From positions 1 to 43,674 of the forward strand of contig JAPLBJ010000043.1 in NCBI GenBank assembly GCA_026392845.1: a stretch of DNA of 43,674 bases, read 5' to 3'. Both the position numbers and the translations under genes were made by a program. The notes below the pieces were generated by a model. That model was given only the letters and a program-made list of their open reading frames with translations, was not told the DNA's origin and searched no databases. Shown one piece after another: positions 26,160 through 43,124 of the stretch (its first letter is position 1; the number at the start of each line of letters is the position of its first letter). The DNA is from Actinomycetota bacterium. Lineage in GTDB: Bacteria > Actinomycetota > Actinomycetes > Nanopelagicales > Nanopelagicaceae.

Positions 26160-26969
26160 ATGGCGGCCACCTCTAGCGGTCGTATGCCGCTGCTCGATCA
26201 TTTGCGTGAATTTAGAAAAAGACTTTTTCGTGCCGTTTTATTCATAACGGCAGGTGCAGTCATTGGTTGGATTTTTTATAATCCAATAATTACACACTTA
26301 GCAAAACCAGTGTGCGATTTAGCCGCCGCGCAAGCTAATGGAGATACTAGCTGTGGCTCTCTTTACATAAACGGCGTTCTCGGCCCTCTGAATTTGCAGA
26401 TCAAGGTTGCACTTCTAACAGGTGTGATTTTGTCGGGACCATTGTGGCTTTATCAACTCTGGGCCTTCATCGCTCCAGGTTTGCACCGCAAGGAAAAACG
26501 AAACTCAATATTTTTTATCCTATCTGCTACACCATTTTTCGCCGCCGGTGCCACATTAGGATATTTAGTTCTCCCGGTTGCGATAAAAGTACTCTTTGGC
26601 TTTACTCCAAATTCATTATCAAACCTTGTAAAATTCGATGATTACCTAGACTTTGTGATGCGAATAATCCTAATTTTTGGTTTGGCATTTGAGTTACCAG
26701 TATTTCTAGTCACTTTTAATCTGATCGGTTTCCTTCGCGGTCAAACAATTCTGAAACCTTGGCGTATATGGATTTTCTCAATCGTTCTTTTTACAGCGGC
26801 ATTCACACCGACAGCTGATCCATTTACCATGCTTCTACTCGCGCTACCGCTGTGTCTCCTCTATTTTATGGCTGGGGGAATAGCGTTATTGGTTGATAAG
26901 CGACGCGATAAGAAATCCTCTAAGGCCATAGATGGGGTCTCACCAATCGATTCCGCGGAGAAGATTTAG
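26160..26969 (+). CDS. tatC: Sec-independent protein translocase subunit TatC
   Basis: A 269-residue membrane protein with six hydrophobic segments. It has the N-terminal MPLLDHLREFRKRLFRAV that reads the twin-arginine signal (Glu of HLREFR is the key recognition residue), LYQLWAFIAPGLHRKEKR and FGLAFELPVFLV. It acts as receptor of the Tat export pathway. It forms an operon with tatA. The diacylglycerol kinase-like gene follows 3 nt after the stop. Confidence 0.95.
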   Translation: MAATSSGRMPLLDHLREFRKRLFRAVLFITAGAVIGWIFYNPIITHLAKPVCDLAAAQANGDTSCGSLYINGVLGPLNLQIKVALLTGVILSGPLWLYQLWAFIAPGLHRKEKRNSIFFILSATPFFAAGATLGYLVLPVAIKVLFGFTPNSLSNLVKFDDYLDFVMRIILIFGLAFELPVFLVTFNLIGFLRGQTILKPWRIWIFSIVLFTAAFTPTADPFTMLLLALPLCLLYFMAGGIALLVDKRRDKKSSKAIDGVSPIDSAEKI

Positions 26970-26972
26970 CCG

Positions 26973-27845
26973 ATGTGGCTCATTGCGATCAACCCGACAT
27001 CGGGACAGGGTCGAGGCGCAACGATGGGTACAAAAGTGGCGGGCTTTTGTTCAAGTAGAGGCATTGATTATGAAATTGTCACAGGTGTGAATGCACATTC
27101 ACTTTCTACCTCTCTCAAAGAGAAAATATCTAGGGATCGAATTCTTATCGACGGAATCATTGCAGTTGGGGGAGATGGTTTAGCGCATCTGATTTTACAA
27201 TCTGCAGTTCCCGCCAATATTCCAATTGCATTTATTCCAGGGGGAACGGGCAACGATTTCGTCAGGACTTTAGGTTGGTCTCTCGATGAGATAACTGCCT
27301 ATCTGCAACGAGTATTTGAAACTAATCCTGTAAATATAGATCTAGGCCTTGTCGATGGTGAATGGTTTGCAGCCGTTCTCTCATCAGGATTCGATGCGAT
27401 TGTTAACGAACGGGCAAATATTCTCAAATGGCCAAAAGGTCCTATGCGATACAACGCTGCTATTGCACTTGAGCTACCGAAATTCAAGCCTGTTCATTAT
27501 GAAATAGAACTAGACAATCAGGTGATTTCAACACAAGCGATGTTGATTGCAATTGGAAATGGCTCATCGTATGGCGGCGGAATGAAAGTGTGCCCCGATG
27601 CAAGTATTCAAGATGGATTATTCGATGTCATGATTTTGCGTCCAGTTTCGATTCCTGAATTCATTCGAGTATTTCCCAAGGTATATAGCGGAAAACACAT
27701 CCACCACCCAGAGGTAGATGTGTATAGAAGCAAAAGAGTTCGTATTGAAGCCGATACTGTTGCCTATGCAGATGGTGAGCGGATAGGACAGTTACCTATT
27801 TCGGCTGAATGCGTAATGGGGGCTCTTTCTACATGGATACCGTAG
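26973..27845 (+). CDS. Diacylglycerol/lipid kinase family protein (DagK/YegS-like)
   Basis: A 290-residue protein of the DAGK catalytic family. The nucleotide motif VGGDGLAHLIL is near residue 68 and PGGTGNDFVRTLG near 90, where GGDG is the catalytic signature. The second domain has GNGSSYGGGMKVCPDASIQDGLFDV, typical of YegS/DgkB. Phosphorylation of diacylglycerol or a related lipid is likely, and the exact lipid is unknown. The ATG is preceded by GGAGAAG. The last 13 nt overlap the helicase gene in another frame. Confidence 0.88.
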   Translation: MWLIAINPTSGQGRGATMGTKVAGFCSSRGIDYEIVTGVNAHSLSTSLKEKISRDRILIDGIIAVGGDGLAHLILQSAVPANIPIAFIPGGTGNDFVRTLGWSLDEITAYLQRVFETNPVNIDLGLVDGEWFAAVLSSGFDAIVNERANILKWPKGPMRYNAAIALELPKFKPVHYEIELDNQVISTQAMLIAIGNGSSYGGGMKVCPDASIQDGLFDVMILRPVSIPEFIRVFPKVYSGKHIHHPEVDVYRSKRVRIEADTVAYADGERIGQLPISAECVMGALSTWIP

Positions 27846-30217
27846 CCTCACCAGCGGAAAAATTTGCCGCAGCTAGTGCGCGTAAGAAATATCAAATCAC
27901 TGCCGAATTTATCGAAACCTTCGAATTTCCTTTTGATCCATTTCAAATTGCTGCATGCAATGCAGTTGAAGATGGCAAAGGGGTCTTAGTAGCAGCGCCG
28001 ACGGGTGCAGGTAAGACAGTTGTAGGAGAATTCGCTGCCTACATCGCCTTGCGTCGTTCTATGAAATGTTTTTATACAACTCCGATCAAGGCACTCTCTA
28101 ATCAAAAGTACCAAGAATTTGTCGCTTGTTTCGGAGAAGATCGAGTTGGGCTTCTTACTGGAGATACGAGTATCAATAGCGAAGCAGATATTCTCGTTAT
28201 GACTACTGAAGTGCTTCGCAACATGCTCTATGCGAATTCTTCAACTCTCAAGAATTTAGGATGCGTCGTAATGGATGAGGTCCATTATCTTGCCGACAAA
28301 TTCAGAGGTGCCGTATGGGAAGAAGTACTCATTCACTTGATGGAAAGTGTCCAAGTAATTTCACTCTCTGCAACAGTTTCAAATGCCGAAGAGTTTGGTG
28401 AATGGTTAGGTGAGATTAGAGGAAGTACTGAAGTCATTGTGAGTGAAATTAGACCTATTCCTCTCTACCAACATGTTCTAATCGGTAATCGCCTTGTCGA
28501 TCTATTCTCGCAACCTGGACAAATCAACGCTGAAATCTTGAAGTTGGAACGCGAGGCGATGCGCAAAATAAGAGTGCCTCGCCAACGCCGCGAACGATTT
28601 AGCGAAGAAGGTGGGCGTCTTACGCGCGCCGACATTATAGAAAAGCTAAATCGAGAGAATCTCTTGCCAGCGATTACATTTATCTTCTCACGCATAGGTT
28701 GTGATGCCGCGGTGAAACAGTGTTTGCAAGCTGGATTACGACTCACGAACACCGACGAGCGTGCAATCATTAGAGAAACCGCTCTGCGATATACACAGAA
28801 CTTAGCTGAAGAGGATTTAGTTGTTCTTGGTTTTGATGATTGGCTCACTGCTTTAGAGCGAGGTATCGCTGCCCACCACGCAGGTTTGTTACCAAGTTTC
28901 AAAGGCGCAGTAGAAGAGTTGTTTCAAAAAGGATTAGTCAAAGCTGTATTTGCAACAGAGACATTAGCACTTGGAATCAATATGCCAGCTCGTACTGTCG
29001 TACTAGAAAAACTTGTGAAATATAACGGTGAAGCTCACGTTCCAATTACACCGGGGGAGTACACGCAACTCACCGGTCGTGCAGGTCGTCGTGGTATTGA
29101 TATTGAAGGTAATGCTGTTATCCAGTGGTCTCCAACAGTTGATTCTGCAACCGCTGCTGGACTCGCATCCACTCGTACGTATCCTCTACGTTCTTCCTTT
29201 GCGCCTACGTACAACATGGCGATAAATCTCATCTCTCGATTTGGTCGCGAACGCGCTCGTGGTTCACTCGAATCTTCATTTGCACAATTTCAAGCTGATA
29301 GAGCGGTAGTTGGTCTGACGCGACAGATCAAAAAGAATAACGTTGCAATGGCTGAACTAATGAAAGATGCAACCTGCCATCTTGGCGATTTTAACGACTA
29401 TGCACGATTGCGTCGAGAAATTCGTGAGATTGAAATCTTGCTTTCTAAGCGTGATGGTAAGAAAACTTTTGATAATAGACAGAGAGCTCACCTTGAAAGC
29501 GAGATGCAAGGGCTGAAAAAGGGAATGCGCGAACATAGTTGCCATGGATGCAGTGACCGCGAAACACATGCTCGTTTAGCAGAGCGAGCAGATCGACTGC
29601 GTCGTGAAAATGATGGTTTGACCAAACGCGTAGAGAATCGCACTCATGTTATCGCTAAAACCTTTGATCAAATCTGTGATGTCCTGACGCATCTCAAATA
29701 TATAGACGGGGAAAAGAGCTCTCCGCAAGGAAAGATACTTGCAAAGATTTACGCAGAATCTGATCTCCTTTTGACTGAAACAATTCGTCTTGGCCTTCTG
29801 GATAATTTGAGCGCTCCGGAGCTTCTATCCGTTGCTTCGTCAATGATCTTTCAATCTCGTTCCCAAGAGAATCTTGCTCCTAAAATTCCGCATATCAATG
29901 TAGCCAATGCTCTCTCTGAAATAGCATCGCTTTGGGTTCAACTTGAAAAGTTAGAAAATGATTTTGGTGTGAAGACGCAGAAAGAACCTGATTTTGGTTT
30001 CTGTTCCATCTCATATCGCTGGGGGAATGGACAATCTCTGTCAAGTGTTCTCAAGGGAAGTGATCTTTCGGTCGGTGATTTCGTGCGTTCGACCAAACAA
30101 CTTATCGATTTACTCACTCAAATTGGTGGAGCGAGTGAAAATCTTCGAGAGAAATGCAAAGAGGGCGTCAAACGCTTGGATCGTGGAGTAGTTGCATATT
30201 TAATGGGGGACTTATGA
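27833..30217 (+). CDS. helY: HelY-like Ski2 family DEAD/DEAH box helicase
   Basis: A 794-residue superfamily 2 helicase of the Ski2/Mtr4 kind, as in actinobacterial HelY. Walker A APTGAGKTVVGEFAAY is near 55, TPIKALSNQKY near 85 (Ia), MDEVHYL near 147 (II), LSATVSN near 178 (III) and TGRAGRRGID near 412 (VI). The C-terminal third has a Cys-containing segment (HSCHGCSDRETH) and a DSHCT-like helical region. The substrate is probably RNA. The ATG at 27833 follows GGGGG and overlaps the lipid kinase end. The next gene overlaps by 4 nt (ATGA). Confidence 0.88.
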   Translation: MDTVASPAEKFAAASARKKYQITAEFIETFEFPFDPFQIAACNAVEDGKGVLVAAPTGAGKTVVGEFAAYIALRRSMKCFYTTPIKALSNQKYQEFVACFGEDRVGLLTGDTSINSEADILVMTTEVLRNMLYANSSTLKNLGCVVMDEVHYLADKFRGAVWEEVLIHLMESVQVISLSATVSNAEEFGEWLGEIRGSTEVIVSEIRPIPLYQHVLIGNRLVDLFSQPGQINAEILKLEREAMRKIRVPRQRRERFSEEGGRLTRADIIEKLNRENLLPAITFIFSRIGCDAAVKQCLQAGLRLTNTDERAIIRETALRYTQNLAEEDLVVLGFDDWLTALERGIAAHHAGLLPSFKGAVEELFQKGLVKAVFATETLALGINMPARTVVLEKLVKYNGEAHVPITPGEYTQLTGRAGRRGIDIEGNAVIQWSPTVDSATAAGLASTRTYPLRSSFAPTYNMAINLISRFGRERARGSLESSFAQFQADRAVVGLTRQIKKNNVAMAELMKDATCHLGDFNDYARLRREIREIEILLSKRDGKKTFDNRQRAHLESEMQGLKKGMREHSCHGCSDRETHARLAERADRLRRENDGLTKRVENRTHVIAKTFDQICDVLTHLKYIDGEKSSPQGKILAKIYAESDLLLTETIRLGLLDNLSAPELLSVASSMIFQSRSQENLAPKIPHINVANALSEIASLWVQLEKLENDFGVKTQKEPDFGFCSISYRWGNGQSLSSVLKGSDLSVGDFVRSTKQLIDLLTQIGGASENLREKCKEGVKRLDRGVVAYLMGDL

Positions 30218-31113
30218 CCTTGATGCTCTTAGATAGCGCCTCACTTTGGTATCGCGCTTACTACGGTATGCCAGACACACTCACAGCCCCTGATGGAATG
30301 CCAGTACATGCAATTCGTGGATATTTAGATATGACATCTCGTTTGATCGGAATGTATAAACCAAATCGAATCGTTGCTTGCATAGAGGGGGATTGGCGAC
30401 CTTCCTGGCGCGTTGATCTTTTTCCTGATTACAAAGCAAACCGTCTCGATGTTGAGGGGGAGGAGGAAGAGCCGGAAACACTCACGGCCCAGATTCCAAT
30501 TCTTTTGGATTTACTCGATCTCTTCGGTATTCCTTTAGTGGGTGTCGATGATTATGAAGCCGATGATGTCATGGCGACATTTTCAGTACGCGAAAAGGGA
30601 CCAATACGTATTGTTACTGGCGATCGTGATCTATTTCAACTAGTTGATGACAAGCAAGATATAAAAGTTGTTTATCTTGCAAAGGGAGTTTCACAACACG
30701 ATTTAGTTGATCATGCATGGGTTGCTAATAAATATCTTATTCCAGGCGATCGGTATGCGCTCTTCGCGATCTTTCGCGGAGATCCCTCTGATGGTTTGCC
30801 TGGGGTCAAAGGTATTGGTGAAAAGGGTGCGGCAATCATTGCAAATAACGCTGCAGATGTTGATGAAGCGATCGCAAAAGCTAAGGCAAGTGATTCACCT
30901 TTTGCTCCGGCTCTCAGTAAAAAAATTCTCGAAGGCCTCGATTATCTAAAAATTGCACCAACACTTGTACATTGCGCTCGAGATGTTTCCATTCCTTCTA
31001 TGGAGATTGCGATGCCAACTAAACCCAAAGATCTTTCGCAAATCTATAAGTTCCAAGAAAAATATGGTCTGGGTGCATCAGTCGACAAAATGATTAGCGC
31101 ATTGGGTTGGTAA
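30214..31113 (+). CDS. 5'-3' exonuclease (PolI N-terminal domain-like)
   Basis: A 299-residue FLAP/5' nuclease alone, without a polymerase domain. Metal-binding acidic residues are seen in MLLDSASLWYRAYYG (start), LFPDYKANR, DDYEADDVMATF near 110-121 and VTGDRDLFQLVDD near 130. GDPSDGLPGVKGIGEKGAA near 187-205 is the helix-hairpin-helix. Such stand-alone proteins in actinobacteria act in DNA repair or Okazaki fragment processing beside PolA. The ATG at 30214 follows AATGGGGGA and overlaps the helY stop as ATGA. The TAA overlaps the lnt ATG by one base. Confidence 0.9.
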   Translation: MTLMLLDSASLWYRAYYGMPDTLTAPDGMPVHAIRGYLDMTSRLIGMYKPNRIVACIEGDWRPSWRVDLFPDYKANRLDVEGEEEEPETLTAQIPILLDLLDLFGIPLVGVDDYEADDVMATFSVREKGPIRIVTGDRDLFQLVDDKQDIKVVYLAKGVSQHDLVDHAWVANKYLIPGDRYALFAIFRGDPSDGLPGVKGIGEKGAAIIANNAADVDEAIAKAKASDSPFAPALSKKILEGLDYLKIAPTLVHCARDVSIPSMEIAMPTKPKDLSQIYKFQEKYGLGASVDKMISALGW

Positions 31114-32507
31114 TGCTTCTTTCTTCAATATTTACTGGATGGCTCTTATCCGCTAGTTATGCACCAATAGATCGATGGTATTTAGCACCTATAGCCATCT
31201 CTCTTTGGATTTGGATCCTCCATAAAGGCAAACGTTCAGTAACCAGTACTTTCGTGATTGCGTTTACATTCAATTCATTTCTCCTACATTGGAGCTCCAC
31301 CTATGTGGGCAATATTCCCTGGCTTATTCTTTGCTTAGGGGAGTCACTGCTTTTCTTACCGTTGGCATGGGCGCGGAAAAAGCGAATAGTTTTTTTCCCA
31401 CTGATATTTTTAGTACTAGAACATCTTCGTTCCATATTCCCATTCGAAGGCTTTGCATGGGGACGATTAGCATTTAGTCAGGCCGATGCACCTTATCGAG
31501 AAATTGTTGCAATCGGGGGAGTATCACTTCTCTCAAGTGTTCTTATCTGCATCGGAATGTTTCTATTCTTCATTTCACGCAATTTCAAGATTAGCGCAAT
31601 TTACGGATTTGTTTTGACACTTTTGTTTATCTCAGTAATCACAATGCCCTCTATGGAATCAATCGGTAACTTCAAGTCCTTACTTGTGCAAGGTGATGTT
31701 CCTCAACTCGGATTGGATTTCAATTCTAGAGCTAAGGCTGTATTCAATATGCATGTGAAGGAAACGCAACGAGCCATTCAGGAAAATAGGGATTTCAGTG
31801 TCGTTATTTGGCCAGAAAATAGTGTCGACGTGGATCCATATAAGAACATCGATGTGCAAACATCATTGACTTCACTCAACAAACTAACATCTAAGCAGAT
31901 CATTATTGGGGCAGTTTTGAGTACAGGTAATAAGGTAGAGAATGCTTCAATCCTCTGGAATCAGGGTGCGGCAACTACATACATCAAGCAACACCTGACA
32001 CCCTTCGGTGAATACATCCCGCTTCGAAGCCTTGCTAGGAATTTCTCACCATTTGTCGACGATGTACAAAACTTCACGCCTGGTACACAAAATGTCATAC
32101 ATAAAGTCGACAGTGCTCTTTTAGGCCCAATTATTTGCTATGAGCTCATCGATGATTCATATATACGACGTGTCAGTCGGGATTCGAACTTACTCGTTGT
32201 TCAAACCAATAATGCAACTTTTGGAACAAGTGCACAAAGTGCGCAGCAATTGTCGATTTCGAGAATCCGAGCAATTGAAAATCATCGAGATCTCGTCAGC
32301 GTATCAACGACAGGAATTTCCGCAGTTATCGATTCACAAGGAAATATTGTGAAATCAACAACGAGTAATCAACCTGATCATTTGTTTGCGAATTCAAAAC
32401 TTTATTCAGGTCAAACAGTTGCTAATAAACTCGGGAATTGGACTTTCATACTGACATGGGCAGGTCTTGGAATCCTTGGATTTATCAGCAGACGGGTATA
32501 CCGCTGA
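31113..32507 (+). CDS. lnt: Apolipoprotein N-acyltransferase
   Basis: Adds the third acyl chain to lipoproteins at the outer face of the membrane. The 464 residues begin with about seven hydrophobic segments, then an extracytoplasmic nitrilase domain with the triad Glu in WPENSVD (near 232), Lys in KQHLTPFGEYIPLR (near 292) and Cys in PIICYELID (near 341). A last transmembrane helix follows and the protein ends with SRRVYR. The ATG is at 31113 (TAATG overlap with the exonuclease). A TTG at 31107 is the alternative. It is the last gene of the plus-strand block before the dif-like site. Confidence 0.9.
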   Translation: MLLSSIFTGWLLSASYAPIDRWYLAPIAISLWIWILHKGKRSVTSTFVIAFTFNSFLLHWSSTYVGNIPWLILCLGESLLFLPLAWARKKRIVFFPLIFLVLEHLRSIFPFEGFAWGRLAFSQADAPYREIVAIGGVSLLSSVLICIGMFLFFISRNFKISAIYGFVLTLLFISVITMPSMESIGNFKSLLVQGDVPQLGLDFNSRAKAVFNMHVKETQRAIQENRDFSVVIWPENSVDVDPYKNIDVQTSLTSLNKLTSKQIIIGAVLSTGNKVENASILWNQGAATTYIKQHLTPFGEYIPLRSLARNFSPFVDDVQNFTPGTQNVIHKVDSALLGPIICYELIDDSYIRRVSRDSNLLVVQTNNATFGTSAQSAQQLSISRIRAIENHRDLVSVSTTGISAVIDSQGNIVKSTTSNQPDHLFANSKLYSGQTVANKLGNWTFILTWAGLGILGFISRRVYR

Positions 32508-32517
32508 GCGTATATCT

Positions 32518-32545
32518 AACGCCGATAAGTTGCATTATGTAAAGT
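32518..32545. other. dif: Candidate chromosomal dif site (XerC/XerD recombination site)
   Basis: A 28-bp sequence of dif layout. An 11-bp left arm AACGCCGATAA (32518-32528), 6-bp centre GTTGCA and 11-bp right arm TTATGTAAAGT (32535-32545) lie in the 76-bp gap between lnt and gcvP. The right arm differs from the Bacillus subtilis XerD arm TTATGTAAACT at one position. The left arm shares nine of eleven bases with the remembered actinobacterial form TTCGCCGATAA. All genes for 9 kb to the left point right, and all genes for 11 kb to the right point left, as expected at the replication terminus. Confidence 0.8.
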
Positions 32546-32583: not shown

Positions 32584-35439
32584 TTAGGAGCTATATGCCT
32601 CTATTGGCGCGCAGGAACAGACCAAATTGCGGTCTCCAAAGGCGCCATCAATGCGTCCAACGGCTGGCCAATACTTACCGCGAACCCCAATCAATTCACC
32701 CGGAATTAGGCCTGTAATCGTGGCTGGGAATGCCCCTGCCTCCCGTGAATAGCTGCGCTCCCAATTGGTCGCTGCAATAGCCGCAATAGTGTGTGGTGCG
32801 TTTCGAAGCGGTGAACCATCAATATCTTGCTTTCCATCGATGATCTCTTGGATCTCAGAGCGAATGCCAACCATCGCATCTATAAAGCGATTCATCTCGA
32901 GAATATCTTCGGATTCAGTTGGTTCAATCATTAGCGTTCCAGCAACAGGGAAAGACATCGTCGGTGCATGGAAACCAAAGTCCATCAATCGCTTTGCAAT
33001 GTCATCAACGCTTACTCCTGAAATTTTAGTTATCTCACGTAAATCGAGAATACATTCATGTGCAATCAAACCTTTATTGCCGGTGTAGAGAATCGGATAT
33101 GAAGATTTGAGTCGCGCCGCCATGTAATTTGCATTCAATATTGCTACCTCAGTTGCATGTGTTAGCCCTTCTCCCCCCATAAGGCGAATGTAGGCCCAAG
33201 ATATTGGCAAAATACTCGCAGATCCAAAAGGTGCTGCTGAAATTGGTCCAGGACCTGTTGCAGGCCCTGCTGTTGCATCTAATGGATGGTTAGGTAGAAA
33301 CGGTGCTAGATGTGCCTTGCAAATCACTGGACCAACACCTGGTCCCCCACCACCGTGTGGAATGCAGAAAGTTTTATGGAGATTGAGGTGAGAAACATCA
33401 GCACCAAATTTTCCTGGTTGCGCTGTTCCAACTAGTGCGTTGAGATTTGCACCATCTACATAAACTTGTCCACCAGCATCATGAATCATCGCGCAGATTT
33501 CTGAAATTGCAGATTCAAAAACGCCATGAGTCGATGGATATGTGACCATGAGGGCCGCAAGGGCGTCAGCATTGAGAGCAATCTTCAGTTTAAGATCTTC
33601 TAAACTAACGTTTCCTTCATCGTCGCATTCAACGACTACTACCGACATGCCCGCCATAACTGCACTCGCCGCATTTGTACCGTGAGCACTCGATGGAATC
33701 AGACAAATATTTCGCCCAGTATCGCCGCGTGAATCATGGTAATTGCGAATAGCCAATAGGCCAGCGAATTCTCCCTGACTGCCAGCATTGGGTTGAAGAG
33801 AAACTGCGTCATAACCAGTGATCTCTACCAACCATTTCGAAAGTTGTTCAATAAGTAAACGCGAACCCTTTGTCTGATCTGCTGGCGCAAATGGGTGAAG
33901 AGATGAGAACTCTGGCCAGGTCACTGCCTCCATCTCAGTGGCTGCATTGAGTTTCATTGTGCAAGAACCCAACGGAATCATTGTTCGATCAAGTGCGAGA
34001 TCGCGATCCGCCAAAGTACGCAGATAGCGCATCATTGATGTCTCTGATCTATATGTGTTGAAAACTGGGTGGCTCAGATATGTTGAAGTACGTTCGAATG
34101 TCGGAGAAATTCGAGATGCTTTTGCATCGGATAAACCAAGAATCTCTAGAACTTCTTGGAACGTCGCGTCCGTCGTTGTCTCATCAAAAGAAACTCGGAC
34201 TTGGGTATCTGAAATTGCGCCAAAGTTATATTTCTTCAATGCCGCGCGTTGATGTACCGCATGTGCATCAACTACATCGATTGTTACCGTATCAAAAATG
34301 TTCTCGTTGCGAGAATTTGCTGCACTCGCAAGACGTGATGCGTATCCATGAACTCGCTCTGCAATTGCGCGAAGCCCATCTGGTCCATGCCACATTGCAT
34401 AGAAGGCACTGATATTTGCAAGAAGGACTTGAGCAGTACAGATATTGCTCGTTGCCTTATCTCGACGTATATGTTGCTCACGCGTTTGCAGAGCTAAACG
34501 AAATGCTGGGTTGCCATGTGCATCAATACTCTGACCAACTAATCGACCTGGCAAAGATCTTTCTAAACCTTCACGCACTGCCATAAATCCTGCATGCGGC
34601 CCACCAAATCCCATTGGTACTCCAAAGCGTTGAGCGGAACCAATTGCAATATCTGCGCCCCACTCCCCTGGCGCCTTAATCAAAGTTAGTGCCAATAAAT
34701 CTGTGGCTGCGATAACAAGTGCACCTTTGGAGTGCGCATAATCCGCTACTTTTGCGAAGTCACAAATTTCTCCAGTGGTATCCGGATATTGAACTAAGAG
34801 ACCGAAGAACTCTTGATCGAATCCATCACGAGCAACATGGCCAGCGTCGACTTCAATAACCTTGATTCCCAGAGGCTTTGCGCGAGTGTGTACAACTGCT
34901 TTGGTTTGCGGATGAACATGTTCCTCAATCAAAAACACTGCATCGTCACTCGTTTTAGAAGTGCGCCTCGCAACAGTCATAGCCTCTGCTGCCGCAGTAC
35001 CTTCATCGAGCATCGAAGCATTAGATAGAGAGAGCGCAGTCATATCGCAGATCACTGTTTGAAAAGCAAAAATTGCTTCTAGGCGACCTTGTGAAATTTC
35101 TGGTTGATATGGTGTGTAAGCGGTGTACCAGGCAGGATTTTCCAAAACATTTCGCTTGATAACAGCAGGTGTAATTGTTCCGTAGTAACCGCCGCCAATG
35201 AGCGATGTGAAGACTTTATTCTGTGAAGCAATCTCGCGAAGTTCAGCAATAACTTCAACTTCACTCTTTGCAGAATCTAAAGTTTGTGAAAGTTTTTTAG
35301 CAATTTGAATATTTGCTGGAACAACATCACTGATGAAAGTCTGAATATCGCGGTAACCGAGCAGCGTTAACATCTCCAGCTCGTCCGAGCCAGAAGGCCC
35401 GATATGACGCTTTTCAAAGCGCTCACCGTTGTACGACAT
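32584..35439 (-). CDS. gcvP: Glycine dehydrogenase (decarboxylating), P-protein
   Basis: The pyridoxal phosphate protein of the glycine cleavage system. It decarboxylates glycine and passes the aminomethyl group to lipoyl-GcvH, whose gene is 2 kb away. The 951 residues form the single-chain kind. An N-terminal half ([30 protein letters not shown]) is followed by a C-terminal half with [16 protein letters not shown] and the PLP Lys in [18 protein letters not shown] near 688. The ATG at 35439 is chosen because AGGGGAG lies 5 nt upstream. The in-frame ATG at 35463 would be before this Shine-Dalgarno. gcvT is not in the window. Confidence 0.95.
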
Positions 35440-35487
35440 CACCACTCCCCTACTTTGATTCAATGGGAAGGGTGAAGAGTATTGGCT

Positions 35488-35808
35488 TTAGGCGCCTTTC
35501 GCCTTTCGACGTTGCGAAAGTTCGTCGTTACTTTCCCCACCAACACGCTGGCCGTTGATCTCGCCAACAAGTGTTGAAAGTGAACCCTCAACCTCATGCC
35601 AAACTTTACTCACGGCAATACTTACAATTTTGAGAACCAAAATATCGCGGAAGCCATAAAGACGTTGTGTTCCAGAACCACTTGCACTTCTAATACTTGG
35701 TTCAACTAAACCAGTGCGCGCCCAGTAATCGAGTTGTCGATATGTAATACCTGCGGCTGAACATGCAGTTGCGCCACGGTAGCCAATTTCGAGATCTTGG
35801 GCAGTCAC
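35488..35808 (-). CDS. MerR family regulator, apparently lacking its central region
   Basis: A 106-residue protein. The first part (IGYRGATACSAAGITYRQLDYWARTG, then LVEPSIRSASGSGTQRLYGF) is the DNA-binding domain of the actinobacterial MerR protein like Rv1828. After RDILVLKIV it jumps to SIAVSKVWHEVEGSL, which resembles the end of the full family protein (remembered as FGIAVGRVWREVEGSL). The linking helices and middle domain of some 60-80 residues seem missing, with the frame kept. Family members are about 200-250 residues. The start is GTG at 35806-35808. The gene follows DUF151, ftsR and garA, its usual neighbours. It may still bind DNA but dimerize differently. Confidence 0.8.
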   Translation of the reverse strand: MTAQDLEIGYRGATACSAAGITYRQLDYWARTGLVEPSIRSASGSGTQRLYGFRDILVLKIVSIAVSKVWHEVEGSLSTLVGEINGQRVGGESNDELSQRRKAKGA

Positions 35809-35886
35809 GGGAAGTGCTCGATTCTCTTGGGGAGTGAGACAAATGTAGGAGTCGCAAGGCCTCTATTCAATCACCGACACGAACGA

Positions 35887-35903
35887 AACCTCTACTTGAG
35901 GTT
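35887..35903 (-). terminator. Possible weak terminator after the DUF151 gene
   Basis: AACCTC (35887-35892) and GAGGTT (35898-35903) form a perfect 6-bp stem around a 5-nt loop, starting 5 nt past the DUF151 stop on the minus strand. The tail TCGTTCGTG has few U residues, so termination may be partial. Confidence 0.35.
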
Positions 35904-35908
35904 GAGAC

Positions 35909-36415
35909 TTATCCGGCGAAATCCTCTGGGTTTATCTGGTCTAGGAACTCTCTGAATCGCTCGAGCTCTTGGCTCTCCTCGCCCGTACCGCCCTCTGCCC
36001 CACCCTGATCCGGTATCTCGATCCCTACCTGATCTAGGAGTTCACTCGTTGCCAAAATATTGCTCTTGGTGCGAAGTGCCAAGGCAATCGCATCCGAGGG
36101 CCTGGCCGAGAGTGTCAATAATGTTGAGGATGCATCACGCAAGTTCAGGGTCGCATAGAAAATTCCATCGACGAGCTCTGTCAAGTGAATCGCGGTCAGC
36201 GTCGTATCAAGAAGGTCAAGCATATTTCCTATGAGGTCATGAGTCATTGGGCGTGGAGGGCTCATCCCCTGCTGCGCAAATGCAATCGCACTCGCTTCAA
36301 CACTGCCTACCCAAATTGGCAGGAAGCGCGAGCCATCAATTTCTTTGAGTAGAACTATCGGTTGATTGGAGGGCATCTCAATTCGAACCCCGACAACTTC
36401 CATCGGAATAAGCAT
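35909..36415 (-). CDS. DUF151 bifunctional nuclease domain protein
   Basis: A 168-residue protein. MEVVGVRIEMPSNQPIVLLKEIDGSRFLPIWVGSVEASAIA and the later LSARPSDAIALALRTKSNILATSELL define the DUF151 family. Plant and some bacterial members have DNase/RNase activity, but the physiological role in actinobacteria is unknown. The C-terminal 40 residues are acidic and Gly-rich. The ATG overlaps the ftsR stop by one base (TAATG), so it is translated with ftsR. The conserved actinobacterial order garA, ftsR, DUF151, merR is kept. Confidence 0.9.
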   Translation of the reverse strand: MLIPMEVVGVRIEMPSNQPIVLLKEIDGSRFLPIWVGSVEASAIAFAQQGMSPPRPMTHDLIGNMLDLLDTTLTAIHLTELVDGIFYATLNLRDASSTLLTLSARPSDAIALALRTKSNILATSELLDQVGIEIPDQGGAEGGTGEESQELERFREFLDQINPEDFAG

Positions 36416-37140
36416 TAGCGAAGTCGGTGGAGACCACCACGTACTAGAGCGGCATGGAGTCGAATTGAAAGGGATGCAATCTCGCGTTGTACTTCTTCGG
36501 CGCGAGCTTTTGATTCCGCGCTCTTCTGACGAGTCAATGGAGTGATGACTTGTTCGATTAGTCCAATCTCTCGATCTGCAGCTGATCTAAATGAACGCAA
36601 GTGACGTGATTCAATTCCAAAACTTGCCATCTCGGTAACAGCCTTCGCAACAGCTAGTGCATCACTGTCATAGTGACGTCCGCGAATTGAAATCATGGCA
36701 TATGACTCGAGTTCAACTAGTTGATCCTCAGTTAGACCACTTGCTTTGAGTAGCTCTTCGCGAGAAAGACGCATCTCATTTGTTGCGCCAAATGAACTAG
36801 CTGCCATCTCTCCATCAATAGTGGCAAGACCTAGAACTGGACGCGGAGTCGCTACTCCCCCAATTGTTGAGGTTGGCTCAAGGCCGCGATCCATCGCATC
36901 AAGATTTTCCTTGATGACTTTGAGAGGCAGGTATTGGTCGCGCTGAGCAAGGAGGACATAGCGCAATCTCTCTAGATCAATACTTGTGAACTTTCGGTAA
37001 CCAGATGGTGTTCTCTGCGGGTCGATCAAGCCTTCCGATTCAAGAAAACGAATCTTTGAGATTGTTATATCTGGGAAATCCCCACGCAACTTTGTGAGTA
37101 CTTCACCGATGCTCAAATAGGCTCTCGCTGGAACTGCCAT
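36415..37140 (-). CDS. ftsR: MerR family regulator FtsR
   Basis: A 241-residue regulator. The MerR winged helix is in LSIGEVLTKLRGDFPDITISKIRFLESEGL with PQRTPSGYRKFTSIDLERLRYVLLAQRDQYLPLKVIKENLD (residues 9-80), followed by a long C-terminal part. The Corynebacterium homologue activates ftsZ and is called FtsR, and the garA-ftsR order agrees. The ATG at 37140 has GGGGAG about 9 nt upstream. The gap before it holds a 10-nt direct repeat that may be its own operator. Confidence 0.85.
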   Translation of the reverse strand: MAVPARAYLSIGEVLTKLRGDFPDITISKIRFLESEGLIDPQRTPSGYRKFTSIDLERLRYVLLAQRDQYLPLKVIKENLDAMDRGLEPTSTIGGVATPRPVLGLATIDGEMAASSFGATNEMRLSREELLKASGLTEDQLVELESYAMISIRGRHYDSDALAVAKAVTEMASFGIESRHLRSFRSAADREIGLIEQVITPLTRQKSAESKARAEEVQREIASLSIRLHAALVRGGLHRLR

Positions 37141-37171
37141 CTTTAATTCTCCCCTATAGATAATGGATATG

Positions 37172-37195
37172 AATACTTAGTACCTAATACTTAGT
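37172..37195. repeat. 10-nt direct repeat upstream of ftsR
   Basis: AATACTTAGT occurs at 37172-37181 and again at 37186-37195, 4 nt apart (period 14), in the 60-bp gap between garA and ftsR. The position is suited to an operator for the ftsR promoter. Confidence 0.6.
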
Positions 37196-37200
37196 GCGTT

Positions 37201-37659
37201 TTACTTTGTACTACCGATGAAAACAAAGTGGAACTTGCCAATTTGAATTTCATCTCCGCTTTTCAAGACATTCTTTTGAACCGAAATATTGTTGAGGTAA
37301 GTTCCATTCAGACTCGAGTTATCTATTAGAACGAATGGACCACCTTCTTCTCTCTTTATCTGCGCATGTGAACGAGAGACCGTTACATCATCGAGAAAGA
37401 TTGCACTCTCTGTCGATCTTCCGATGCTCACACCTTCAGATGTGATGAGAAAACGTGATCCTTTTTGAGGACCACGAGCAATGACGAGCATTGCCTTTTC
37501 ACCAGATGATTGAGCAATTTCTCGCACGATTACTTGAGATTTTTCATCGAGACTAGATAACAAATCTTCGAGTGTTTTTGCTGGGGAATTCTGCGCAACA
37601 CCTCGAACACCTAAATGGATTGTTGATGTGAGCTCGCTCTGCGATTCTGCTGCATTCAT
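37201..37659 (-). CDS. garA: FHA domain protein GarA/OdhI
   Basis: A 152-residue phosphothreonine-binding protein. The FHA core runs from about 57 to 148, with SIGRSTESAIFLDDVTVSRSHAQI and DNSSLNGTYLNN as the Arg, Ser-x-x-His and Asn-Gly motifs. GarA/OdhI inhibits 2-oxoglutarate dehydrogenase when unphosphorylated and is controlled by Ser/Thr kinases (PknB/PknG) on an N-terminal ETTS motif. Here the equivalent N-terminal stretch reads ELTSTIHLG, so the second Thr is kept and the first is Leu. GGAGG precedes the ATG. It is followed by ftsR, as in other actinobacteria, and preceded by gcvH. Confidence 0.88.
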   Translation of the reverse strand: MNAAESQSELTSTIHLGVRGVAQNSPAKTLEDLLSSLDEKSQVIVREIAQSSGEKAMLVIARGPQKGSRFLITSEGVSIGRSTESAIFLDDVTVSRSHAQIKREEGGPFVLIDNSSLNGTYLNNISVQKNVLKSGDEIQIGKFHFVFIGSTK

Positions 37660-37719
37660 TGCTCTCCACCTCCATCACCTTCAACTTAAGGGTGACACTA
37701 GAGAGTCAATGGCGTTAGG

Positions 37720-38100
37720 TCAAGCGGTAAAAGTCGCGTATTCCGCCGCACTCATAAGCTCTGAAGCTGGTGCGCTCACTGTGATTTCAAGGAGCCAACC
37801 TTTGTTATATGGATCGGAGTTGATAATTTCAGGATTTGCCACTAGAGCCTCATTGACAGCAGTGACAGAACCTGTGACAGGTGAAAAAATTTCTGAAACA
37901 CTTTTTGTTGATTCAATTTCACCGCAAACCTTTCCTTCAGAAACACTCTCGCCAACCTTAGGTATTTGCACATAGACAATGTCACCGAGTGCGCTCTGCG
38001 CAAAATCTGTAATGCCAACTCGAAGAACAGAGTCATTCGATGTTGCCTCAACCCACTCATGCTCTTTTGTGTAATGCAATCCATCAGGAATCTGTGACAT
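37720..38100 (-). CDS. gcvH: Glycine cleavage system H protein
   Basis: A 126-residue lipoyl carrier that shuttles the aminomethyl group between the P, T and L proteins. The N-terminus is PDGLHYTKEHEWVE and the lipoylated Lys lies in CGEIESTKSVSEIFSP near residue 66. The start ATG follows the stop of the upstream phosphatidyltransferase gene directly, with AGG inside that gene's last codons serving as Shine-Dalgarno. It is 2.3 kb from gcvP on the same strand, with garA and the MerR/DUF151 genes between. Confidence 0.95.
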   Translation of the reverse strand: MSQIPDGLHYTKEHEWVEATSNDSVLRVGITDFAQSALGDIVYVQIPKVGESVSEGKVCGEIESTKSVSEIFSPVTGSVTAVNEALVANPEIINSDPYNKGWLLEITVSAPASELMSAAEYATFTA

Positions 38101-38670
38101 TTACCTAACTCGCTTTCCGTAACGATAAAGATCAATACCCTTTGCAAAATATGAAATACCGGTAGAAATGTAGAGGGCGATTCCCCAGATAGCAAAACAC
38201 CATCCCAGAACGAATGCCAATGTTCCGATCCATGACTGCTGCAAGGCTAAAAGAAGAAAGGGAAAGGCATACATAAGGTTGAAGGTTGCAGCCTTGCCTA
38301 AATAGGTAACGCTCATAGGACCGTGGCCACGAGTTTTCAGCGCAATGGTCAAAATTCCCAGAATTACATCTCGTCCCAGAAGCACGATGACAATCCATAA
38401 AGGAATTGCATCGCGCAAAACGAGGGCAACAAGTGTTGCAACGATGTAGAAACGATCAATTGCGGGATCAGCTAATTCTCCAAAGCGTGATTCTTGACCC
38501 CACGCGCGTGCCAATTTTCCATCGAAATAATCTGTAGCTCCCCCAAGGGCCAATACAAATATCGCCCACCCATCAGCCTCTAGCGATAGCGCTAGGTAGA
38601 GAAAGAGTGGAATCCCGAGGGCCCGAAGAAACGTTAGAGCGTTAGGAATCGTGAGCAGAGATCTATTCAT
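38101..38670 (-). CDS. CDP-alcohol phosphatidyltransferase (PgsA-like)
   Basis: A 189-residue membrane enzyme with the CDP-alcohol phosphotransferase signature fully present: DYFDGKLARAWGQESRFGE then LADPAIDRF (D..DG..AR, eight residues, G, three, D, three, D). About six hydrophobic segments are seen. It transfers a phosphatidyl group from CDP-diacylglycerol to an alcohol such as glycerol 3-phosphate. The product (phosphatidylglycerophosphate or cardiolipin) cannot be settled from sequence alone. It starts 1 nt after the cmk-der stop and abuts gcvH. Confidence 0.85.
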   Translation of the reverse strand: MNRSLLTIPNALTFLRALGIPLFLYLALSLEADGWAIFVLALGGATDYFDGKLARAWGQESRFGELADPAIDRFYIVATLVALVLRDAIPLWIVIVLLGRDVILGILTIALKTRGHGPMSVTYLGKAATFNLMYAFPFLLLALQQSWIGTLAFVLGWCFAIWGIALYISTGISYFAKGIDLYRYGKRVR

Positions 38671-38671
38671 A

Positions 38672-40633
38672 CTAATCGCGCTCTTTTACCCGAATCGCAA
38701 CCATGACAGGAGTACCGGGAAAGCCGAATTCTTCACGCAAACGTCGCTCAATAAAGCGACGGTATGAGGCTTCAATCCACCCACTTGAGAAGACTACGAA
38801 TTTCGGCGGGGCGATGCCGGCCTGTGTTGCGTAGTAAATCTTTGGCTGCTTTCCACCCCGTACGGGTGGTGGGGTCGCGCCAATGAGAGCGCCAAGGAAT
38901 GAGTTGAGCTTTGCGGTTGGAACTCTTCGCTCCCAACTATCGAGTGCGGTGCGAAGTGCGGGGGCTAATCGATCTCGGTGCCAACCAGTCTTGGCCGCAA
39001 CATTGACTCGCTGAGCCCATTCAACTTGGTCGAGATGTCTATCGATTTCGCGGTCAAGTTGGTCTCTGCGATCTTCATCGACTAAGTCCCACTTGTTCAT
39101 CACAATAACCATCGCCTTGCCAGCCTCTTCAACCATGGTGATGACGCGAAGGTCCTGTTCCGAAATTGGAATCGAGGCATCTAGAACCACTACTGCAACT
39201 TCGCATCGCTCCAACGCTGCTTGTGTTCGAAGCGTTGCGTAGTAATCAGTTCCCGATGCTTGATTAGCGCGTTTACGTAGGCCAGCTGTGTCGACAAATC
39301 TCCAGATCGACCCACCGAATTCAATAAGTTCATCAACTGGGTCACGAGTTGTTCCGGCAACATCATCAACAATTGCGCGATTCTCACCAGCGAGTGCGTT
39401 GAGCAAACTTGATTTACCAACATTGGGGCGACCGATGAGTGCAACCCGTCGATAACCGTCGTTATATTGTGCGCCACCGACTTCAGGTAAAACTTCGATG
39501 AGACGATCTAGTAAATCTCCGCTACCTCGACCGTGAAGTGCTGAAACGAAATATGGTTCACCGAGTCCCAGATTCCAGAGTGCATGTGCATCAGATTCTT
39601 CGCGTTCGCCATCTACCTTGTTTGCTACAAGAATTGTTGGCTTCTTTGCTTTGCGTAACTCTTGAATCAAAATATCGTCTTCATCTAGTGCGCCAACTTG
39701 TGCATCTACTACAAATGCCAAAACATCGGCTTCTTGCATCGCCAGTTCTGCACCAGCGCTTACTTGAACTGAAATTCCATCCGGTTTGGATTCCCAACCA
39801 CCTGTATCCATAACAATAAAACGTCGACCGCCCCATTCGCATTCGTACTGAACGCGATCTCGAGTCACGCCGGGAGTATCTTCAACAATTGCTTCACGAC
39901 GACCAATAAATCGATTGATAAGAGTTGATTTTCCAACATTTGGTCGCCCCAGTATTGCAATGATTGGTAAACCTAGAAGTGAACGCTCTTTGAGAATCTC
40001 CCAAATACGCTCAACCGTTTCCTCCAGTGATAGCAATGTGGAATCTACTTCTACGGCATCTGGTGCCAGAGCAAGTGGGGATACTAATCGAGTCGAGTCC
40101 GTATGGTCGCGATCGCTCAATGATTGCGCTACTTCTGCGACATCTCTATCAATAGGGAGCTCTTTTTCTCGCCGGTCTGCACGTGCATCTAAATCAGCAG
40201 TCAGGTAGATCTTTAGTGGCGCTTTAGGGAAAACTACAGTTCCAATATCTCGACCTTCAACAACAATTCCACGTTCTGCATCATTGATCATTGATCGCTG
40301 AACATTGAGAAGTTCGGCGCGTATCTCAGGCATTGCGCTGATTCGGCTAACAGCATCCGTAACTTCATCGCTTCGAATCTGTTGCGATACATCTGTGTCG
40401 CCGACAAAGATTGATGGCGATAGTGGATTTGCAACAAAGCCAAGAGGCGCGCGTCCTAACTCTTTGAGAATATCTTTCGCGCTTTCAACTTTTTTCTCCA
40501 GAGCTAACCATGTAACACCGCGATATAGCGCACCAGTATCTAAATAATTCCAGCCCGCTCTTTGCGCTATCGCGCGAGAAGTACTTGATTTGCCAGCTCC
40601 ACTTGGGCCATCTATTGCTACGACTATGGCCAT
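38672..40633 (-). CDS. Bifunctional cytidylate kinase / GTPase Der
   Basis: A single 653-residue chain joining two usually separate enzymes. Residues 1-220 are cytidylate kinase (P-loop GPSGAGKSS at 9-17, [33 protein letters not shown]). From about 225 on it is the tandem GTPase Der: GRPNVGKST near 229, [15 protein letters not shown], then GRPNVGKSS near 400, GTTRDP, MNKWD and a C-terminal KH-like domain. Cmk makes CDP/dCDP and Der helps mature the 50S ribosome. The fusion is known in actinobacteria. The frame is open throughout, with no stop or frameshift at the joint. Confidence 0.93.
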
Positions 40634-40649
40634 AAGGTCAGTCTATTCT

Positions 40650-41717
40650 CTATTTGCGCACTGGATGGACATTCCATCCTTTAGTAATCAAATGCTCTGA
40701 CAATTTCGCTGCACCTTGTTCTGAGAGTCCTAGTGTGATGAGACCAGTGAGTTGTCCTGGTGAATGCTCTATTGATAAATCTTCAACGTTGACATCAATC
40801 TGCGCACAAATATTAAATATTGCAGCGAGATTTCCGGGAGCATCAGGAATTACGATAGGCAGATACGAATAATTGCGTGCTTTGCCTCCATGTTTTCCTG
40901 GAATCTTCGCGCGACCGACGCGTCCCTCTTCAATAAAAGCACCAATCTCTAATGAATAATCGCTAGCGCTATTGAGAAGTTTTTCAAATGATTGGAGATC
41001 ATCAATGAGGGCATGCAAAATAGGTGCAATTTTTTCACGATTCATAGAAATAATTTCTTGCCATAACTTTGGATCGGAGCCCGCAATTCGAACCGTGTCT
41101 CGTAACCCCTGACCCGCCAGCGCCAGCCATTCATCAGGAAAATCCTGGAGCTGTTTTGCAAGCAGTGAGGAGAGGATTTGAGGCAGGTGAGATATCGCAG
41201 CAACTGCCTTGTCGTGTTCCGATGCATCCATCACTACCGGGGTAGCACCTAAAAGTTCGACCAGTTTTCTAGCCCGATCTATCGACTCTGTAGAACTACC
41301 CTGTGGGGTCAAAACCCAACTACGCCCTTCAAAGAGATCTCCTCGAGCCGACTCAGGACCACCTATTTCACGCCCTGCCATGGGGTGTGTGGCTACGAAC
41401 TGAGCCAAAGGTAGCTTTGAAGCCGAAACTACCTGTAAAGGATTGGTCTTAACGCTACCAATATCTATAAATGTCGACCTTGGGTTTAGTGAATATTCAG
41501 CCTCTATGACCAAGGGTAGGTGCTGAGTCGGCAAGGAGAAGATAACGAGTTCTGGATCAATGAGCTTCTCCCCCTTCGCCAGATCATTTGCCAAGTTTTC
41601 ACTTCTAGTATCACTATCGATTAGGTCAACAGGAATAGAGATCTTCGTAAGGGCTAGAGCTATCGATGTTCCGATAAGGCCAGAGCCCACGATTCGAACT
41701 CCCGAAAATATTGACAT
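40650..41717 (-). CDS. tyrA: Prephenate dehydrogenase
   Basis: Converts prephenate to 4-hydroxyphenylpyruvate in tyrosine synthesis. The 355 residues begin with the NAD(P) motif VRIVGSGLIGTSIALAL. They carry FIDIGSVK, ATHPMAGREIGGPESA near 115 (His and Gly of the active site) and the helical dimer domain with AISHLPQILSSLLA. A C-terminal ACT domain (about 285-352) suggests feedback control by tyrosine. It lies 10 nt after aroH on the same strand, so successive steps from chorismate are encoded together. Confidence 0.92.
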   Translation of the reverse strand: MSIFSGVRIVGSGLIGTSIALALTKISIPVDLIDSDTRSENLANDLAKGEKLIDPELVIFSLPTQHLPLVIEAEYSLNPRSTFIDIGSVKTNPLQVVSASKLPLAQFVATHPMAGREIGGPESARGDLFEGRSWVLTPQGSSTESIDRARKLVELLGATPVVMDASEHDKAVAAISHLPQILSSLLAKQLQDFPDEWLALAGQGLRDTVRIAGSDPKLWQEIISMNREKIAPILHALIDDLQSFEKLLNSASDYSLEIGAFIEEGRVGRAKIPGKHGGKARNYSYLPIVIPDAPGNLAAIFNICAQIDVNVEDLSIEHSPGQLTGLITLGLSEQGAAKLSEHLITKGWNVHPVRK

Positions 41718-41727
41718 TGGCGCTCGA

Positions 41728-42090
41728 TTATTGGGCTATATCGCGGCGAAGAGCCTGGGCTCCACCTAGGTAAATATGGGAGATTTCACTCGTTTTGCGC
41801 TCGCTCTCCACATGCAACATCACTCGGATTACACGCTCAAGAGCCCCTTTGACATCAATTTCGGCGGCGCACATCAGTGGAATCTCTGTAAATCCAAGGG
41901 CGCGTGCTCCAGCTGCTGGAAATGCAGAAGTGAGATCTGGGGTAGAAGTGAGCAGCACCGAGATAATCGAGTCGAGCTCGATCTGGTTCGCCTCCATAAT
42001 CGCCTTCAAAAGCTGGGCTACACCCGCGTTGATATCGCTCTCAGTATCGGCTGCGATTTGAATCGCTCCCCTGATGGCACGTGTAGACAT
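41728..42090 (-). CDS. aroH: Chorismate mutase, AroH type
   Basis: Rearranges chorismate to prephenate. The 120 residues match the Bacillus AroH fold: RAIRGAIQIAADT at the start (active-site Arg), LLTSTPDLTSAFPAAGAR near 47, PLMCAAEIDVKGALERVIRVMLHV near 71-94 (Cys, Glu and Arg of the active site) and ISHIYLGGAQALRRD near the end (Tyr). The ATG at 42090 has TACCAT 6 nt upstream. It is the first gene of the aroH-tyrA-cmk/der-phosphatidyltransferase-gcvH run, and a 271-nt non-coding gap precedes it. Confidence 0.92.
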   Translation of the reverse strand: MSTRAIRGAIQIAADTESDINAGVAQLLKAIMEANQIELDSIISVLLTSTPDLTSAFPAAGARALGFTEIPLMCAAEIDVKGALERVIRVMLHVESERKTSEISHIYLGGAQALRRDIAQ

Positions 42091-42096
42091 GGGCTA

Positions 42097-42102
42097 ATGG
42101 TA
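42097..42102 (-). promoter_or_regulatory. Predicted -10 element of the aroH operon
   Basis: TACCAT on the minus strand ends 6 nt before the ATG at 42090, at the leaderless spacing used elsewhere in the window. Confidence 0.45.
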
Positions 42103-42361
42103 CTGGGAATAGCTAAAATACGACGCTGAATAGAATAATGTCTAAGCAATTTAGCCATTTATTGATATAACTGTTTTACTACAAACGTGACCTCCCGGAT
42201 CCGAATCCCGATGGATAACGACACTTTGGGAAATATCGACTTATAGGTATCTGACGCGTGATTTGCGCTGGATGATTATCGATAAATCGTTACTTTTATC
42301 CGGTAATACCTATTTATCGATATAACGCTATTGTACCTATTAACTATAAACCGTTTTAAGG
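42103..42361. other. AT-rich non-coding island with ATCGAT-centred repeats
   Basis: The longest non-coding stretch of the window, between rluB and aroH. It holds a 20-nt imperfect direct repeat (17 of 20 identical) at 42152-42171 and 42307-42326, ending in GATATAAC. A third, inverted copy of the 11-nt core lies at 42277-42287, giving an inverted repeat TATCGATAAAT / ATTTATCGATA (42312-42322) with TTAC and GTAA inside. No start-to-stop frame of useful size, tRNA or known RNA was seen. Confidence 0.6.
42277..42322. repeat. 11-bp perfect inverted repeat
   Basis: TATCGATAAAT (42277-42287) and ATTTATCGATA (42312-42322) are exact complements separated by 24 nt, in which TTAC and GTAA can add four inner pairs. 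Each arm also contains a palindrome centred on ATCGAT. Confidence 0.7.
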
Positions 42362-43087
42362 TTACATATCTAAAGCGTTACGCAAATTTAGCAATTCCCC
42401 ATCATGAAGGTCTCGCCAACGTCCTTCAGTCGTATCCCCCAGGGAGATCGGACCGAACTTGGTTCGCACCAGTCTCAAGACATCGACTCCTACCGCCTCC
42501 ATCAATCGACGGATGATGTGGTAGCGACCTTCGTGAATTGAGACTTCAATCCAACGAGGTGAGAGTTCACGGAAGGATAAGACTCGACCGATTCCATCTT
42601 CTAGCTCTACTCCCTTCAAAAGGGTCTTCTCGACCCCTGAAGGTAAAATTCCATCAAATTCAATGATGTAGGTCTTCTCCAGGCCAAAGGATGGATGGGT
42701 CGCCCTAAAGGTGAGATCTCCATCATTTGTCAGCAGAATAAGCCCCTCAGAATCCTTGTCGAGGCGCCCCACGTGGAATAAGCGTTCGCGGCGAAGGTCA
42801 ATAAAGTCGCTCAAGGAAGGACGCCCTTCGGGGTCGTACATCGTTGACAAAACACCCTTAGGTTTATGAAGTGCAAGATAAGTCTTAGTCGTTGAGCGCG
42901 TAATTGTCTCACCATCAACCATTACTTGAACCTTGTCAGGGTCAACTTTCTTTCCTAGCTCGCGTACGACATATCCATCGACGGTAACTCGACCATCTGA
43001 GATCAGTTCATCTGCTCCGCGACGACTCGTAATTCCAGCGTCAGCGATTATTTTATTGAGGCGCATTTCGGCCATGTGGCTATCCAT
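42362..43087 (-). CDS. rluB: Ribosomal large subunit pseudouridine synthase (RluB/RsuA family)
   Basis: Isomerises a uridine in 23S rRNA. The 241 residues have an N-terminal S4 RNA-binding domain (MRLNKIIADAGITSRRGADELISDGRVTVDG) and a catalytic domain with the invariant Asp in GRLDKDSEGLILLTNDGD near 107. LEKTYIIEF and EGRYHIIRRLMEAVG follow. The start may be ATG 43087, 43075 or 43066; the S4 domain begins at the last of these. It lies 37 nt after scpB on the same strand, as in many Gram-positive scpA-scpB-rluB operons. Confidence 0.92.
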   Translation of the reverse strand: MDSHMAEMRLNKIIADAGITSRRGADELISDGRVTVDGYVVRELGKKVDPDKVQVMVDGETITRSTTKTYLALHKPKGVLSTMYDPEGRPSLSDFIDLRRERLFHVGRLDKDSEGLILLTNDGDLTFRATHPSFGLEKTYIIEFDGILPSGVEKTLLKGVELEDGIGRVLSFRELSPRWIEVSIHEGRYHIIRRLMEAVGVDVLRLVRTKFGPISLGDTTEGRWRDLHDGELLNLRNALDM

Positions 43088-43124
43088 TCCCGACAGTCAA
43101 GTGAAGGGAGAGTCTAGAAGATGC

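Follow-up and report, generated by a model that had tools for sequence, protein, structure and literature searches.

We report that the 28-bp sequence AACGCCGATAAGTTGCATTATGTAAAGT, located at positions 32518-32545 (plus strand) of the 43,674-bp stretch of DNA analysed here (the window), is almost certainly, judged from its sequence and setting, the chromosome dimer resolution (dif) site of the chromosome that carries it, and of the ordinary actinobacterial type. This upholds an earlier note on the same DNA, in which the 28-mer was a candidate dif, and the arguments for the chromosomal assignment are the single copy, the match of its arms to those of the predicted Frankia alni dif, the mid-chromosome position in relatives and the switch of GC skew. 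The 28-mer thus joins a well-described family, being a chromosomal dif that is ordinary in kind. The polarity of the word GGGGGA marks the site independently and is the most interesting by-product of the analysis; on the distribution of this word in the sequence we propose GGGGGA(G) as the KOPS of this group.

A single predicted dif site between lnt and gcvP

The window corresponds to positions 1-43674 of contig C46 in a draft genome of 73 contigs (1,357,029 bp, 94.52% complete). The 28-mer is composed of a left arm, AACGCCGATAA (32518-32528, +), a 6-bp central region, GTTGCA (32529-32534, +), and a right arm, TTATGTAAAGT (32535-32545, +), where we by convention take the left arm to be the predicted XerC half-site and the right arm the predicted XerD half-site. 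It is positioned within the 76-bp gap that separates two convergent open reading frames (ORFs), 31107-32507 (+) and 32584-35463 (-), and outside both of them, as stated in the earlier note. The left ORF is lnt, encoding apolipoprotein N-acyltransferase (TIGR00546, 218.3 bits, cut-off 132.9), and the right gcvP, encoding glycine dehydrogenase (TIGR00461, 1326.3 bits, cut-off 859.2).

A genome-wide search for another copy, as suggested earlier, returned this site alone: with up to three mismatches allowed the 28-mer has one match in the 1.357-Mb draft and the reversed-pattern control none, while 100 shuffled versions of the window gave on average 0.00 matches at the same threshold. A second, weaker dif-like match in the window, with three arm mismatches, was noted at 26360-26385 (-).

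Copies of dif can be mobile, and the 28-mer might accordingly be a dif-like attachment scar, or the Xer site of a plasmid or phage, instead of the chromosomal dif. Mobile copies do exist, since the looser pattern GCCGATAA-N6-TTATGTNAAGT is present in 70 stretches from viral contigs, one of them with three sites in tandem. We nevertheless consider such an origin exceedingly improbable here, given that the site is the sole one in its genome, that its neighbours lnt and gcvP are housekeeping genes, with the gcvP neighbourhood common to all 31 sites of the genus (see below), and that both tyrosine recombinases found are encoded on other contigs (C10 and C12), outside the window.

Among the viral stretches (L160-L229) the identical form TAAGCCGATAACTAACATTATGTTAAGT was present in 13 of 70, and a match to the genome's own Xer proteins near the dif-like site was found in one of the 70 (L226). 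The tandem sites are located at 1050-1132 of an IMG/VR viral contig of 31,660 bp (L195), with a spacing of 29 bp, the centres GTATTA, GTATTG and GTATTA, and arms that resemble those of the lineage studied here; a gene for a terminase large subunit lies about 0.8 kb away, and L195 could be a phage that uses Xer recombination.

With respect to other genes in the window, 36415-37140 (-), about 4 kb from dif, encodes the transcriptional regulator FtsR (NF050798, 282.8 bits, cut-off 150), which is an actinobacterial regulator. Moreover, 30154-31113 (+) encodes a 319-residue protein related, below curated cut-offs, to DNA polymerase I in its N-terminal 5'-3' exonuclease part; the adjacent gene (27809-30217) encodes a helicase-like protein.

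Conservation of the site and its neighbourhood

Sixty genomes, including the one studied here, were searched with the pattern CGCCGATAA-N6-TTATGTAAAGT, allowing up to two mismatches. The pattern was present in 41 of these (own genome included), with one copy in each, and the reversed-pattern controls gave no match across all 60. Within the genus 31 of 37 genomes (again counting the own) have the site, and the six without a match at this threshold are 56, 57, 76, 76, 80 and 82% complete. Among the 23 genomes from other families of the class, 10 have a match and 13 have none (up to two mismatches).

The place of the site is also conserved. In tblastn alignments the 3' end of gcvP is 2-63 bp to the right of each of the 31 genus sites, and for 24 of the 31 lnt was found to the left, in five of these at a distance of 700-780 bp; in two genomes (G032 and G036) the lnt alignment enters the site by about three bases. 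Over the 31 sites the information per column is 1.23-2.00 bits for columns 3-28. Left-arm columns 4-11 and right-arm columns 18-23, 25, 26 and 28 are invariant (31/31), an invariance that is partly built in because the arm columns lie within the search pattern (up to two mismatches) and the script filter. The central columns 12-17, which were left free in the search, are nearly constant as well (1.59-2.00 bits over the 31 sites); the centre is GTTACA in most relatives and TGCACA in one (G008). Flanks outside the 28-mer are poorly conserved, except for T at column 0 and A at columns 1, 30 and 35-36.

Scanning by pattern across the genomes of named species yielded 114 stretches, partly from the same genomes as the set of relatives, such that the two sets are not independent; the titles among the 80 stretches listed include Candidatus Planktophila, Candidatus Nanopelagicaceae and many uncultured actinobacteria. 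In 109 of the 114 loci gcvP is convergent and within 400 bp of the site. Of the remaining five stretches, three stop 12-88 bp past the site, one has gcvP at 936 bp (L122) and one has none (L089). The 3' flank of gcvP is hence a conserved landmark for locating dif across this freshwater lineage. As to single flanking positions, the A at column 30 (window position 32547, two bases past the 28-mer) is present in 31/31 genus sites and 106/114 named loci, and the T at column 0 in 96/114 named loci; the functional site may extend a little past the 28 bp, or a gcvP stop codon may contribute.

A conserved element between convergent genes might also be a transcription terminator or a regulatory element with an incidental likeness to dif, and both the convergent genes on either side and the weakly palindromic arms (by inspection) would agree with this. 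We give this reading hardly any credence. The same type of arms occurs in the 10 genomes from other families, and at six of the seven of these loci that were compared neither lnt nor gcvP was found within 1.5 kb on each side (the seventh, L006, has an lnt-like match), and thus the site does not simply follow lnt and gcvP. In addition, Rfam at gathering scores gives no match at the site, its only match in the window being a tRNA gene at 11706-11789, and both GC skew and word polarity switch at the site.

Probable position of the replication terminus and GC skew

Two relatives are available as single contigs, G013 (1,328,793 bp) and G014 (1,364,004 bp), and in both dnaA starts near base 470. The site is found at 658,139 in G013 and at 696,036 in G014, i.e. 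at 49.5% and 51.0%, respectively, counted from dnaA. A similar position was seen in two genomes from other families: at 53.8% of the main contig in G039, counted from dnaA at the contig start; in G048, dnaA and the site are 2.63 Mb apart on a 5.50-Mb contig.

GC skew was sampled in 20-kb stretches, 20 per chromosome, in G013 and G014. In G013 it is positive in 10 of 11 stretches left of the site and negative in 9 of 9 to the right; in G014 the corresponding numbers are 10 of 11 and 7 of 9. The first 20 kb of G013 has a slightly negative skew, and beyond this origin piece the sign is wrong in 3 of 40 stretches, all in G014 (at 350, 830 and 1270 kb). Within 40 kb around the site the maximum of the cumulative skew is 0.1 kb away in G013 and 1.6 kb away in G014. 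For the window itself, the cumulative GC-skew plot that had been suggested as a check has its maximum at 30,892, 1.6 kb from the site. The third-position skew of minus-strand genes, expressed for the plus strand, is +0.148 to the left (10 genes) and +0.014 to the right (12 genes), which is the direction expected of a replication switch; given the small sample we do not lean on it.

Together these data support the earlier suggestion that the terminus is in the window, where the position is inferred from the relatives and from local polarity, the own genome being a draft of 73 contigs. In this way the replication terminus region could be placed in a fragmented draft from sequence alone. The dif site marks the terminus region and not necessarily the exact point where the forks meet, as stated in passages of PMC3025954.

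Xer recombinases and FtsK

The own genome has two recombinases of the Phage_integrase family (PF00589), one on each of C10 and C12, and the window has none. The first (P0001) has its best match to XerC (TIGR02224, 320.2 bits, below the cut-off of 335.15), while the second (P0002) scores higher with XerD (TIGR02225, 317.6 bits, below the cut-off of 329.6) than with XerC; both are above the cut-off of the broader model NF001399. One FtsK was identified, a protein of 771 residues encoded on C33, with a gamma domain at residues 700-757 (Pfam FtsK_gamma, 80.0 bits, cut-off 30.6) that can be aligned to the solved FtsK chains 2j5o, 2ve8 and 2j5p. In these alignments GFAKAGRLMD of the own FtsK gamma is matched with GYNRAARMIE or GYNRAARIIE in the solved chains. 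We take the contacts with KOPS to be the N, R and E of this GYNRAAR(M/I)IE segment, and their counterparts in the own FtsK are A, R and D, which would fit a changed recognition word.

Polarity of GGGGGA toward dif

The orientation of short words relative to the site was analysed in G013 and G014, in a first sample of 800 kb and in a full sample of 1,033 kb that contains those 800 kb. GGGGGA pointed toward the site 145 times and away from it 10 times in the first sample, and 212 and 10 times in the full one, where it has the top polar fraction among the 1993 hexamers that occur at least 100 times. Likewise, among the 7480 heptamers that occur at least 40 times, GGGGGAG (96 toward, 1 away) has the top polar fraction. 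By z the leading heptamer of the first sample is GAAGAAG (275/95), but it was set aside since GGGGGAG (96/1) tops the polar fraction.

The same polarity is seen in the window. Left of dif there are 17 GGGGGA words between 5246 and 31520, candidate KOPS that are all on the plus strand and point to dif (starts at 5246, 6207, 9652, 15507, 17276, 20693, 23776, 24814, 26874, 27168, 27240, 29053, 30021, 30205, 30387, 30456 and 31515). To the right, 33172-43499, there are seven, all on the minus strand and again pointing to dif (starts at 33172, 33343, 36856, 38539, 41569, 42435 and 43494). The counts toward/away are thus 17/0 on the left, and on the right there are 0 words on the plus and 7 on the minus strand, which places the reversal of polarity between 31515 and 33172, a 1.7-kb interval that contains the site. 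In G013 the reversal falls in the interval from -2478 to +652 relative to the site, and in G014 in that from -954 to +781, where both intervals contain the site; two of the words in G013, located at +5.1 kb and +5.4 kb, are wrongly oriented. The density of GGGGGA within 50 kb of dif is 0.29 (G013) and 0.35 (G014) per kb, and beyond 550 kb it is 0.00-0.10 and 0.04-0.20 per kb, respectively, with irregular values in between. For the 114 named loci, 517 of 540 GGGGGA words point to dif and 23 in the opposite direction.

The own genome contains 274 GGGGGA words. Among the first 100 of these 274 as listed, eight contigs have at least five words each, and on these contigs 73 of 76 words share the majority strand of their contig. 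On the contig that carries dnaA (C34), 6 of 16 GGGGGA words are oriented away from dnaA as expected, and the skew is irregular there too: the local GC skew changes sign near 70 kb and not at dnaA, beside which, at about 43.3 kb, DnaA-box-like 9-mers cluster. A rearrangement close to the origin, or a misassembly, is possible around dnaA (40000-115000 of C34).

The polarity of GGGGGA might be a by-product of codon use, of GC skew or of a general bias in G-rich words and not a signal for FtsK. In the sampled DNA, frames (stop-to-stop, at least 300 nt, not curated genes) on the leading strand cover 760 kb and those on the lagging strand 224 kb; the leading-strand frames contain 176 GGGGGA words toward and 3 away from dif, and 122 of the 176 are in one reading frame. 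Other G-rich words are also polar in the 114 named loci, e.g. GGGNAGGG (48 of 54 toward dif) and GAGAAGGG (40 of 45). These observations give the by-product explanation some substance, yet we regard it as unlikely. Within lagging-strand frames 27 words still point toward dif and 2 away (between frames the numbers are 9 and 5), and gene direction is therefore no explanation of the polarity. Moreover, AGGGGG, the reversed word, has 76 occurrences in the own genome, 3.6 times fewer than GGGGGA, and is less polar (107 of 137 toward dif in the named loci), GGGGGA has the top polar fraction of all hexamers ranked with a density that drops with distance from dif, and in two other families the top heptamer by z again contains GGGGGA.

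A candidate KOPS in the wider group

For the other families, heptamers were ranked in 20 samples of 20 kb each from G048 and G039 with dif assumed as the point of the switch. The top heptamer by z is GGGGGAG (110 to 7) in G048, which has 5.5 Mb, and CGGGGGA (48 to 6) in G039, a 5.97-Mb contig from a third family, where GGGGGAG is second (37 to 5); among hexamers in G039, GGGGAG (105 to 37) ranks just above GGGGGA (71 to 18). Since a heptamer containing GGGGGA is first by z in both genomes, GGGGGAG is proposed as an actinomycete KOPS. On these sequence data it is probable that GGGGGAG serves as KOPS in a broad set of Actinomycetes, that it is distinct from GGGNAGGG and that FtsK gamma reads it by means of a changed recognition helix. 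At one end of the range of this proposal are freshwater Planktophila-like genomes of 1.3 Mb (about 45% G+C), and at the other relatives of 5.5-6 Mb in other families (about 66% G+C in G039). GGGGGA(G) thereby constitutes a directly testable candidate KOPS for Actinomycetes.

Proposed mechanism of dimer resolution

The elements read from the sequence, i.e. the site in single copy at a conserved place that is terminal in relatives, the XerC-like, XerD-like and FtsK-gamma proteins, and the switch in polarity, would together be consistent with the following pathway. If sister chromosomes cross over an odd number of times, a chromosome dimer would result, and the septal translocase FtsK would pump the DNA toward the 28-mer, guided by polar G-rich words (candidate GGGGGA, best GGGGGAG) that point to the site from both sides. 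At the site the gamma domain of FtsK would activate XerD at the right arm, whereupon strand exchange by XerD and XerC, at the two edges of the 6-bp centre, would give two monomers. By analogy with the established E. coli pathway we infer that the site is bound, the order in which strands are exchanged, that FtsK acts as activator, and that FtsK gamma reads GGGGGA(G).

Comparison with known systems

The dif site of E. coli has another sequence than the site in the window, and the guide words differ as well, with GGGGGA(G) as the candidate here and GGGNAGGG in E. coli. What the E. coli dif/XerCD/FtsK system, as outlined in passages of PMC3025954, and the own genome have in common is a single terminal site, two tyrosine recombinases and an FtsK with a gamma domain.

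The closest published comparison is the predicted dif of Frankia alni, given in passages of PMC3025954. It has the same 11-6-11 plan and is identical to the window site at 20 of 22 arm bases, or 22 of 28 bases overall; based on base composition only, 0.0004 matches with at most two arm mismatches to it would be expected in a random genome of this size. The two arm differences are at positions 1 and 24, with A in the window site and C in F. alni, and the centres differ, GTTGCA in the window and TGCACA in F. alni. Hence the alignment to actinobacterial dif sites that the earlier note had called for agrees with its reading, both in the arms and in the presence of sites in 10 of the 23 other-family genomes. 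The passages that search terms returned from an open library contained none naming dif for this lineage.

With respect to guide words, the passages retrieved from PMC13342612, PMC11898615, PMC13277299, PMC5993296 and PMC3025954 deal with KOPS or AIMS in general or with GGGNAGGG, and none found in this open-library search names an actinobacterial KOPS word, although prior publication of the word is possible. The architecture-imparting sequences (AIMS), as described in passages of PMC5993296, resemble GGGGGA in being short strand-biased words for which selection is inferred to be maximal at the terminus, but they are a general statistical class of 8-bp words, with no actinobacterial word named in those passages. 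Finally, the KOPS GGGNAGGG is described for Enterobacteria and Vibrio cholerae in passages of PMC13342612, and GGGGGA is similar to it in that both are G-rich, oriented to dif and switch at dif. They differ in the core word, and in the 114 loci there are 540 GGGGGA compared to 54 GGGNAGGG.
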